From positions 186,001 to 250,000 of the forward strand of contig NZ_JAALJH010000002.1 of assembly GCF_011064615.1 (NCBI RefSeq): a DNA stretch of 64,000 bases, in the 5' to 3' direction. Origin of the DNA: Aquisphaera insulae (GTDB taxonomy: Bacteria; Planctomycetota; Planctomycetia; Isosphaerales; Isosphaeraceae). How positions within the stretch are numbered: position 1 is the stretch's first letter; each line of letters starts with the position of its first letter. Of this stretch, positions 50,005 to 56,962 are shown one piece after another. Made by a program: the position numbers and the translations under genes. The notes under the pieces are model-generated. The model did no database searches. It worked only from the letters and a program-made list of their open reading frames with translations, and was not told the origin of the DNA.

Positions 50005-52266
50005 ATGGAGAGCTCCCGCAACATGGCCGCTTCGAACCTGCCAACCGCCGATGGCGATCCCAAGGATACGGCGTTCCGGCCCTATGTCCCGGCCGGCGCG
50101 GAGATCACCGAGCTGTCGCTCAAGGCCGTGGTCCTCGGCTCCCTGCTGGGGGTCGTCTTCGGTGCCTCCTCGCTCTACCTCTTCCTGAAGGTGGGGATGA
50201 CCGTCTCGGCGTCGATCCCCGTCGCCGTGCTGGCGATCACCATCTTCCGCGGCCTCTCGCGGGCGTTCGGGACGCGGCCGACCACGATCCTCGAGAACAA
50301 CATCGTCCAGACGGCCGGCTCCGCGGGCGAATCCATCGCGTTCGGCGTCGGCGCGGCGATGCCCGCCCTGATGCTCCTGGGCTATGAGCTCGAGTGGACC
50401 CGCGTGATGCTCGTCTCGGTGCTCGGCGGCCTGCTCGGCATCCTCATGATGATCCCGCTCCGCAAGGCGTTCATCGTCAACCAGCACAAGACCCTGCCCT
50501 ATCCGGAGGGGACCGCCTGCGCCAAGGTCCTGATCGTCGGCGAGCACGGCGGGTCTCACGCGCGGACGGTCTTCCTCGGCTTCGGGGTCGGCTTCGTCTA
50601 CCAGATCTTCATGAAGGGGCTGAAGCTCTGGTCGAGCGAGTGGGACAGGGCGATCACCGGGATCAAGGGCTACACCAAGGCGATCGTGGCGCTGGAGCCG
50701 GATCCCGTGCTCCTGGGCGTCGGCTACATCATCGGCCCGCGGATCGCCGCGGTCATGGTCGGCGGCGGGTTCCTCACGGCCCTGATGCTAACCCCCATGA
50801 TTGCCTATTTCGGCGACGGCGTACCGGGCGTGCTTCTCCCCGGCCAGAAACCGATCCACGACCTGAGCGCCGGCCAGATCTCGGGCCAGTACGTGCGCTA
50901 CATCGGGGCCGGCGCCGTGGCCGCGGGGGGCATCCTCAGCATGCTCAACGCCCTGCCCTTGATCGTCTCTTCGGTGATCGCCAGCTTCGGGTCGATCGGC
51001 GCGGGCCGGAAGGCGGGGGACGGCATCGACGGCGAGGCCGCCGCGCCGAGGACCGACAGGGACATCCCGATGCCGCTCGTCCTCCTCGGCTGCCTCGCCC
51101 TGGTGGCGGCGGTGGCCGCGTCGAACCTGATCCCCACAACCCTGTATGGTCGGATCCTCGGCGGCGCGATGATCGTCCTGTTCGGCTTCCTCTTCGTCAC
51201 GGTGAGCTCCCGAATTACGGGCGTGATCGGCTCGTCGTCGAACCCGATCTCGGGAATGACCATCGCCACGCTCCTGTTGACCTGCCTCATCTTCGTCCTG
51301 CTCGGCTGGGTGGGGCCGGAATACCGCCTGGCCGCGCTCTCGATCGCGGGGGTGGTCTGCATCGCGTCCTCGAACGGCGGCACGACCTCGCAGGACCTGA
51401 AGACCGGTTATCTTGTCGGCGCGACCCCGTGGAAGCAGCAGGTCGCGATCCTCGCCGGGGCGCTCGTCTCGGCCGTCGTCATGGGGGGCATCCTGCTCTG
51501 GCTCAATGACGCCTACTCGACGGTCACCGACCGGGCGGCCGACCTGCCCTCGATCAAGGCGAAGGTGGCCGACCTGAAGGACTCGGAGGTCGGCCCCGAC
51601 GGCCAGACGTACAAGATCTGGTGGGTTGTCAATCCGGAGCCGGGCGTCCTGCCGGGCAAGTATTTGGTTGATGAGTCCGGGCAGGCGAAGTACCTGAAGG
51701 ACCCGGGCATCGGCGGCCGGCTCAACTATTCGACGACCGGCGCCGACCTGAAGAAATTCAACCCCCCGCAGCCTCGGCTCTTCGCGACGATCATCGACGG
51801 GATCATGAAGGGCGACCTCCCCTGGGGGCTCGTGATCCTGGGGGCGGTCCTCGCGATCGTGATGCAGCTCGCGGGGGTCTCCGCGCTGGCCTTCGCCGTG
51901 GGCGTCTACCTGCCGCTCTCCACCACGCTACCGATCTTCGTCGGCGGTCTGATCCGCCTGGTCGTGGATAAGGCCCGCAGGTTCAACGCCGAGGAATCCG
52001 ACATGAGCCCCGGCACCATGATGTCCACGGGGCTCATCGCGGGGGGCTCGCTCGCCGGCATCATCATCGCCCTGCTGGTCGTCTTCGAGAAGCTGGGCGC
52101 GATGCTCGACATGTCCAGGAAGGTGGGCGAGGACGTCGAGTATTTGCTGCCGGCGATCGGGGCATTCGCCCTCATCGCCGCGACTCTCCTGGTCGTCGCC
52201 CTGACCGGCAAGCGGCCGGTCGTCGAGGACGCCAAGGACGCGGAGGCAATCGTGACGGAGATCTGA
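50005..52266 (+). CDS. OPT family oligopeptide transporter
   Basis: 753 residues with about 15 membrane segments. Family pattern: LSLKAVVLGSLLGVVFGASSLYLFLKVGMTVSASIPVAVLAI and NNIVQTAGSAGESIAFGV near the N-terminus, then KTLPYPEGTACAKVLI and SSNGGTTSQDLKTGYLVGATP, all typical of the OPT/YSL group. Probably proton-driven uptake of peptides or metal chelates. A second in-frame ATG at 50023 is preceded by ggaga and may be the true start. Contains a large soluble loop (~500-590). Confidence 0.92.
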   Translation: MESSRNMAASNLPTADGDPKDTAFRPYVPAGAEITELSLKAVVLGSLLGVVFGASSLYLFLKVGMTVSASIPVAVLAITIFRGLSRAFGTRPTTILENNIVQTAGSAGESIAFGVGAAMPALMLLGYELEWTRVMLVSVLGGLLGILMMIPLRKAFIVNQHKTLPYPEGTACAKVLIVGEHGGSHARTVFLGFGVGFVYQIFMKGLKLWSSEWDRAITGIKGYTKAIVALEPDPVLLGVGYIIGPRIAAVMVGGGFLTALMLTPMIAYFGDGVPGVLLPGQKPIHDLSAGQISGQYVRYIGAGAVAAGGILSMLNALPLIVSSVIASFGSIGAGRKAGDGIDGEAAAPRTDRDIPMPLVLLGCLALVAAVAASNLIPTTLYGRILGGAMIVLFGFLFVTVSSRITGVIGSSSNPISGMTIATLLLTCLIFVLLGWVGPEYRLAALSIAGVVCIASSNGGTTSQDLKTGYLVGATPWKQQVAILAGALVSAVVMGGILLWLNDAYSTVTDRAADLPSIKAKVADLKDSEVGPDGQTYKIWWVVNPEPGVLPGKYLVDESGQAKYLKDPGIGGRLNYSTTGADLKKFNPPQPRLFATIIDGIMKGDLPWGLVILGAVLAIVMQLAGVSALAFAVGVYLPLSTTLPIFVGGLIRLVVDKARRFNAEESDMSPGTMMSTGLIAGGSLAGIIIALLVVFEKLGAMLDMSRKVGEDVEYLLPAIGAFALIAATLLVVALTGKRPVVEDAKDAEAIVTEI

Positions 52267-55552: not shown

Positions 55553-55626
55553 CGGATCCCTTACAATGGTGGGAACAGCGAGGTGCGCATCTTGCCGCCT
55601 CGCATCCTCGATCTCGGGAGTCGATG

Positions 55627-55866
55627 ATGGACGTGACCCTGGAATACTGCGCGCTTTGAAACTACGAGCCCCAGGCCGTCAGTCTAACGGCCAAGCTGTT
55701 GCCGCGGTACAAGCGGCAGATCGGCCGATACTCGCTGATCCCGTCCAAGGGCGGGTGCTTCGAACTGACCGTGGGCGGGAAACGCCTCTACTCGAAGCTG
55801 GAGACGGGCAAGTTCCCCGACGAGGACGCGATCGTCGCCGCGGTCGGCAAGGCCCTGGGTGATTGA
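55627..55866 (+). CDS. SelW/Rdx-type selenoprotein with in-frame UGA (Sec)
   Basis: 79 residues when the TGA at 55657-55659 is read as selenocysteine. Translation gives MDVTLEYCALUNYEPQAVSL..., i.e. CxxU in the strand-loop-helix place of Rdx-family thioredoxin-fold proteins (SelW, SelT, SelH), followed by LTAKLLPRYKRQIGRYSLIPSKGGCFELTVGGKRLYSKL and ending with FPDEDAIVAAVGKALGD. The stop TGA (55864-55866) lies within the selD gene's start, eight bases overlapping. gggag stands six bases upstream of this ATG; an ATG at 55624 is also possible. A SECIS-like hairpin follows the UGA. Conventional gene finders would miss it. Confidence 0.85.
55674..55692 (+). promoter_or_regulatory. SECIS-like hairpin after the Sec codon
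   Basis: GGCCGT (55674-55679) pairs perfectly with ACGGCC (55687-55692) around the 7-base loop CAGTCTA, which contains the G-T-C-T series resembling the apical loop of bacterial SECIS elements. It begins 15 bases after the TGA, in the window expected for SelB-bound elements in bacteria. Confidence 0.75.
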
Positions 55867-56962
55867 TCCGCCTCGCCCTCCTGGAAAGGCCAGGGCAGAG
55901 ATCGTGAACCCCGGGACGCAGAAGCGGTTTATCGACTATGCCAACTGTGCCGGTTGTGCCGGCAAGATCCCCCCGCTGGGGATCGCGCAGTTGCTGAAAG
56001 GTCTGCCTGCGACGTTCAGGGACCCCAACGTCCTGGTCGCGACCGAGACCATGGACGATGCGGGCGTCTACCGCCTTTCGGACAACCTGGCGATGGTCCA
56101 GACCGTGGACTTCTTCCCGCCCGTGGTGGATGACCCGTTCGTCTTCGGCCAGATCGCGGCGGCCAATGCGCTCTCGGATGTCTATGCGATGAACGGCCGG
56201 CCGGTCACGGTGCTGAACATCGCCGGCTTCCCTGACGACGAGCTCCCGCTGGAGATCCTCGCACAGGTCCTCCGCGGCGCGGCCGATCGCGTGGCCCTTG
56301 CCGGGGCGACGACCCTGGGCGGTCACACGCTCCGGGACAAGGAGGTGAAGTTCGGGCTGAGCGTCACCGGCCTGATCGATCCGGCCGACCTGCTCACCAA
56401 CGCCGGAGCCCGGCCCGGCGACGTGCTCGTCCTGACCAAGCCGCTCGGGACCGGCTTCATCACCACGGCCGCCAAGCGAGAGTCCTGCCCGGCGGGCGTC
56501 CTGGAGCGAGCCGTCGCCTCGATGATCGAGCTCAACGCCGTCGGCCGCGATGCCCTCCGCGAGGCGGGCGGCGCCCACGCACTCACCGACGTGACGGGTT
56601 ACGGCCTCGCCGGCCATGCCTCCGAGATGGCCGACGGATCCGGGGTGACGATCGAGCTCGATGCGGGCACCCTGCCGGCGATCGAGGGGGTTGCGGAGCT
56701 CGCGATCCCGAAGTTCCACACCCGGGCGAGCCGGACGAACCGGGAGTTCCTCCGCGATAAGATGGAGGTCGCCGCCGAGGCGGATCCGCTGGGGGTCGAG
56801 CTCGTCTACGATCCGCAGACGTCCGGCGGCCTCTTGATCGCCGTCGATCAGCGATCGGTCGATCGACTCGTCGAGGCGCTTCGCCGTCGCGAAACTCAGG
56901 CCGCCGCGGTCGTCGGCAGGGTCGTCGAACGTAGCGGGACGACCTCGGTCCGGCTCCGCTGA
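55859..56962 (+). CDS. selD: selenide, water dikinase (selenophosphate synthetase)
   Basis: 367 residues from the GTG at 55859; a GTG at 55903 would also give a full-length protein. It makes selenophosphate from selenide and ATP for Sec-tRNA synthesis. The active loop reads NCAGCAGK: the essential Cys and Lys are kept, while a second cysteine found in the E. coli enzyme (CGCK) is Gly here. TVDFFPPVVDDP (ATP/Mg), ANALSDVYAMNGRP, TLGGHTL, and DPQTSGGLL complete the family pattern. The overlap with the selenoprotein gene indicates translational coupling and a functional selenium pathway. Confidence 0.95.
   Translation: MIDPPRPPGKARAEIVNPGTQKRFIDYANCAGCAGKIPPLGIAQLLKGLPATFRDPNVLVATETMDDAGVYRLSDNLAMVQTVDFFPPVVDDPFVFGQIAAANALSDVYAMNGRPVTVLNIAGFPDDELPLEILAQVLRGAADRVALAGATTLGGHTLRDKEVKFGLSVTGLIDPADLLTNAGARPGDVLVLTKPLGTGFITTAAKRESCPAGVLERAVASMIELNAVGRDALREAGGAHALTDVTGYGLAGHASEMADGSGVTIELDAGTLPAIEGVAELAIPKFHTRASRTNREFLRDKMEVAAEADPLGVELVYDPQTSGGLLIAVDQRSVDRLVEALRRRETQAAAVVGRVVERSGTTSVRLR

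Follow-up and report, generated by a model that had tools for sequence, protein, structure and literature searches.

A predicted SelW-like selenoprotein gene with an in-frame UGA beside selD in Aquisphaera insulae

SelW-like proteins of bacteria and the gene of the Rdx family

SelW-like proteins of the CxxU type are listed among the most abundant selenoproteins of prokaryotes in marine surveys, 48 genes being reported from the Sargasso Sea (PMC1088965) and 427 from GOS (PMC2398784). Their function was called unclear, with a redox role suggested (PMC1088965). In a 2026 review, SELENOW-like proteins are assigned to PF10262 and described by the motif CxxU with one selenocysteine (Sec) (PMC13188914). 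Features shared by bacterial SelW-like proteins (PF10262/TIGR02174) are the CxxU motif, a length of ~80 residues, nearly full-length Rdx homology and a SECIS element directly past the UGA. Such proteins have long been known in bacteria (since 2005), so this kind of protein is not new; their genes were missed completely in epsilonproteobacterial annotations (PMC4607533). Planctomycetota are not named as a host phylum in the cited literature on the family. The gene described here differs from the known bacterial SelW-like genes in its adjacency to selD and in its host phylum, and is otherwise ordinary.

The window, i.e., the whole analysed stretch of 64,000 nucleotides of Aquisphaera insulae DNA, contains this gene on the forward strand at positions 55627–55866, with an internal TGA at 55657–55659 and a terminal TGA stop at 55864–55866. 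Translation with the internal TGA read as U gives a protein of 79 residues, MDVTLEYCALUNYEPQAVSLTAKLLPRYKRQIGRYSLIPSKGGCFELTVGGKRLYSKLETGKFPDEDAIVAAVGKALGD, in which the redox motif is C8-A-L-U11; the boundaries, the length of the read-through product and CALU at the redox position, as given in the earlier note, are correct on translation. The run GGGAG at 55616–55620 of the same strand, 6 nt 5' of ATG 55627, is the likely ribosome-binding site, as judged from reading the sequence. An in-frame ATG at 55624, one codon upstream, is a possible alternative start, with poorer spacing to GGGAG. Elsewhere in the window, an ordinary gene of an OPT-family oligopeptide transporter (Pfam OPT) is located at 50005–52266.

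Profile and structure comparisons confirm that 55627–55866 is a real gene for a protein of the SelW type (Rdx family). The Pfam model Rdx (PF10262, cut-off 22.6 bits) matches residues 3–73 of the read-through product with 64.2 bits and an E value of 1.3e-17, and the NCBIfam model TIGR02174 'CXXU_selWTH' matches residues 3–74 with 60 bits, above its curated cut-off of 34.2 bits. The homology extends across the UGA, from the 5' segment to far past it. The best single model is NF041051 (SelTWH_Campy, SelT/SelW/SelH family (seleno)protein), with 73.1 bits over residues 3–73; this score is below the curated equivalog cut-off of 88 bits, and the product is accordingly not an equivalog of that subfamily. 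Eight distinct PDB sequences are matched, including Atu0228 (2fa8), 2obk and mouse selenoprotein W (2npb), and in the two best of these alignments the position of U is occupied by Cys (YCTQCNW and YCTQCQW). The Cys-type Rdx proteins Atu0228 (2fa8) and 2obk belong to the same family, their YCxxC being aligned with YCALU of the window product, but they have Cys instead of Sec, are about 105 residues long compared with 79, and are devoid of the segment NYEPQAVSLT.

Long spurious open reading frames are common in GC-rich DNA, and a frame of this size could arise beside selD by chance; the strength of the Rdx match, together with homologues at E 1e-24 or better in 19 genomes of the host family, refutes this explanation, to which we assign practically no probability.

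Conservation of the UGA codon among relatives

The product was compared with 45 genomes of the host family, its own genome included. A close match was found in 19 of them (the window's own counted), each with an E value of 1e-24 or lower; all 19 matches contain exactly one TGA, which codon extraction places at residue 11. Beyond these, the family contains a single match, to a paralogue (L037) with 36% identity, which has TGC at the position of residue 11. A second scan, with one genome per species and with peptide patterns omitting residue 11 and thus blind to its codon, yielded 64 loci, and TGA is present at the codon of residue 11 in all 64. About ten of these loci belong to the same organisms as those of the family search, and both sets combined comprise 73 distinct TGA-bearing sequences, mostly from Planctomycetota, with single or few representatives labelled in their records as Verrucomicrobia, Poribacteria, Chloroflexi, one strain of Bacillota and others. 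Matches to TIGR02174 were found in 110 of 294 Planctomycetota genomes; among the matches listed, all but eight carry one TGA, and the two of these eight exceptions that were read have the CxxC form (YCTQCRW in L102 and YCFKCKW in L103).

The segment 3' of the TGA is conserved together with the TGA itself. Between the window and the copy from the same genus (G001), 4, 2 and 12 differences after the TGA were found at the first, second and third codon positions, respectively, and of the 15 changed codons, 11 are synonymous and 4 non-synonymous. Since protein-level conservation of this segment extends over dozens of genomes and the differences are mostly at third positions, the pattern is more than chance and points to protein constraint downstream of the TGA. 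The earlier note had proposed a SelW/Rdx-type selenoprotein and suggested that the read-through product be searched for Rdx homology after the TGA, for conservation in relatives beyond it and for homologues with Cys at its position; all of these were found, the last in L037, L102, L103 and the PDB relatives.

A single base change converts TGY to TGA, and the gene could accordingly be a SelW pseudogene in decay, its internal stop having arisen from a Cys codon (TGC or TGT) by mutation or by sequencing error; the slightly weakened hairpin of the window copy, described below, would agree with such decay. This origin is refuted by the occurrence of the same TGA in dozens of independent genomes within and outside the phylum and by the strong conservation and protein constraint of the segment after it, and all family genomes with the gene also have selA. 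A pseudogene is therefore considered highly improbable.

Two loci from Centralia MAGs of Planctomycetota (L088:3001–3240 and L090:3001–3240) encode a SelW-like protein with TGA at both positions of the motif, RY-U-AM-U-GYEPQAVSL. The two UGA codons of this UxxU form are nine bases apart and share a single hairpin, and the gene is located beside a selD that also contains TGA. For SELENOW-like proteins, the CxxU form with a single Sec is the sole one given in the 2026 review (PMC13188914). No further UxxU SelW was found in 392 Planctomycetota genomes with an exact, strict DNA pattern.

Predicted SECIS hairpin and genes of selenocysteine incorporation

A bacterial SECIS hairpin is predicted at 55675–55691 of the forward strand, with arms 55675–55681 and 55685–55691 and the loop GUC at 55682–55684, on the basis of covariation, RNAalifold and a codon control. 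The hairpin starts 16 nt past the UGA; with the first UGA base numbered 0, bases 18–24 pair with bases 28–34 around a three-base loop. Its consensus is GCCGUCA-GUY-UGACGGC, and the first loop base, G (55682 in the window), is invariant across homologues. This agrees with the short SECIS elements with an apical loop and an invariant G of other bacteria (PMC4607533).

In the covariation set, which comprises 71 distinct homologues, pairing is present in 87.3% of cells, and double-sided changes occur in four of the seven pairs, with 15 double-sided change cells observed versus 1.8 in shuffles. Every covariation measure falls when the partner is shifted by 1–3 columns. Compensation is seen, for example, in GCCAUC...GAUGGC (L034), GCUGUC...GACAGC (L052) and GCCGUUA...UAACG (L073 and L078). 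RNAalifold alone recovers the inner five pairs. At 65 of 73 loci, AGT is the Ser codon spanning the loop; in six neighbouring genes of the window, by contrast, only 3 of 138 Ser codons are AGT. Over all loci, the mean stability of the hairpin is -9.3 kcal/mol, compared with -5.1 kcal/mol in synonymous-codon controls (mean z -1.7).

The window copy is imperfect because A is present at 55686 where relatives have G, which places a mismatch, C55680 x A55686, in the upper stem. By itself, the window hairpin is no better than its synonymous-codon controls (P 0.26–0.39), and the minimum-energy fold of the window UGA with the next 48 nt is a structure different from the SECIS hairpin. The covariation across homologues is of the kind expected of a bacterial SECIS, of which the window copy is a predicted, imperfect representative.

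The genes selA, selB, selC and selD are all present in the host genome, including the first three, on which the earlier note had made its proposal depend. The genes selB (362.8 bits) and selA (491.2 bits) are adjacent on one contig, and tRNA-Sec (79 bits, anticodon TCA, i.e., UCA) was found on a contig other than that of the window; the window itself gave no match from Rfam at the gathering threshold, nor from ARAGORN. The assembly consists of 309 contigs with an estimated contamination of 5.09%, so that a foreign origin of the machinery genes located on other contigs is conceivable in principle; this is countered by the presence of over-cut-off selA in 30 of the 45 family genomes. All 19 carriers of the SelW gene belong to these 30, and the gene is found in none of the 15 genomes without over-cut-off selA (Fisher P 2.3e-5, a guide only, because the family genomes share ancestry). 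Full Sec machinery has been described in planctomycete genomes, including Isosphaera pallida (PMC4807772).

The formate dehydrogenase alpha gene FdhA of the host genome (G000), on contig C39 (L112), contains TGA in the usual Sec motif, CNRTUHAPSVAGL. A further match to positions 1–52 of the FdhA model is located ~2.6 kb downstream on this contig. No Sec peroxiredoxin was seen among the 47 matches to PF00578 in the host genome, none of which has an internal stop. Very probably, Sec is used by the host in SelW and FdhA at the least, FdhA being the second selenoprotein of this genome.

The residue inserted at a UGA is not deducible from sequence alone, and general recoding or suppression could place Trp or Cys there instead of Sec. 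Such decoding is rejected in view of the complete Sec system of the genome, the SECIS-like hairpin after the UGA, the presence in distant homologues of Cys, the usual partner of Sec, at residue 11, and the use of UGA as a stop elsewhere, e.g., at the ends of selW and of selD (56960–56962); it is rated as very unlikely, if slightly less so than the pseudogene.

The reading of the locus as a SelW-like selenoprotein gene is, in our assessment, almost certainly correct. Ribosomes would insert Sec at UGA 55657 using tRNA-Sec(UCA) and SelB, guided by the short SECIS hairpin about 16–32 nt downstream of the UGA, and SelD, encoded by the adjacent gene, would supply selenophosphate. The product would be a 79-residue protein of the thioredoxin-fold type, in which the pair C8-A-L-U11 most likely acts as a thiol/selenol redox centre, as suggested by the motif and by the literature.

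Association with selD and its meaning

The gene selD, encoding selenide, water dikinase (TIGR00476, 354.5 bits, E 4.8e-106), is located directly downstream of selW on the same strand, in accordance with the adjacency proposed earlier. Its longest reading, 55859–56962, begins with GTG 55859, in which case the two genes would overlap at the SelW stop; relatives begin near GTG 55904, which is the more likely start. In 15 of the 19 family loci, selW is found just upstream of selD, on the same strand and within about 300 nt. The active site of SelD is encoded with TGA (CAG-TGA-AGK) in 13 of these 15 paired loci and with Cys (CAGCAGK) in two, the window and L024. The same-genus SelD (G001) has TGA where the window SelD has Cys, and a recent Sec-to-Cys exchange in the window SelD, while SelW kept Sec, appears likely from this comparison.

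The arrangement suggests that selW and selD may be co-transcribed. It would go considerably further to regard the pair as a conserved co-transcribed unit of Planctomycetota in which the CxxU protein, instead of being a general antioxidant, works directly for SelD, perhaps as a reductant or carrier of selenium species or as a link between the output of SelD and the availability of Sec; this combined proposal is considered rather unlikely, and a direct functional tie between SelW and SelD should be read as a lead and not as an established result.

The value of the finding lies mainly in a corrected annotation, genes of this kind being often missed by gene finders. Because standard gene finders break the gene at the UGA, the SelW gene and many of its relatives have probably been missed or truncated in planctomycete annotations. 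As a mild addition, the frequent adjacency of selW and selD offers a testable lead on the role of bacterial SelW proteins, which are obscure in function.
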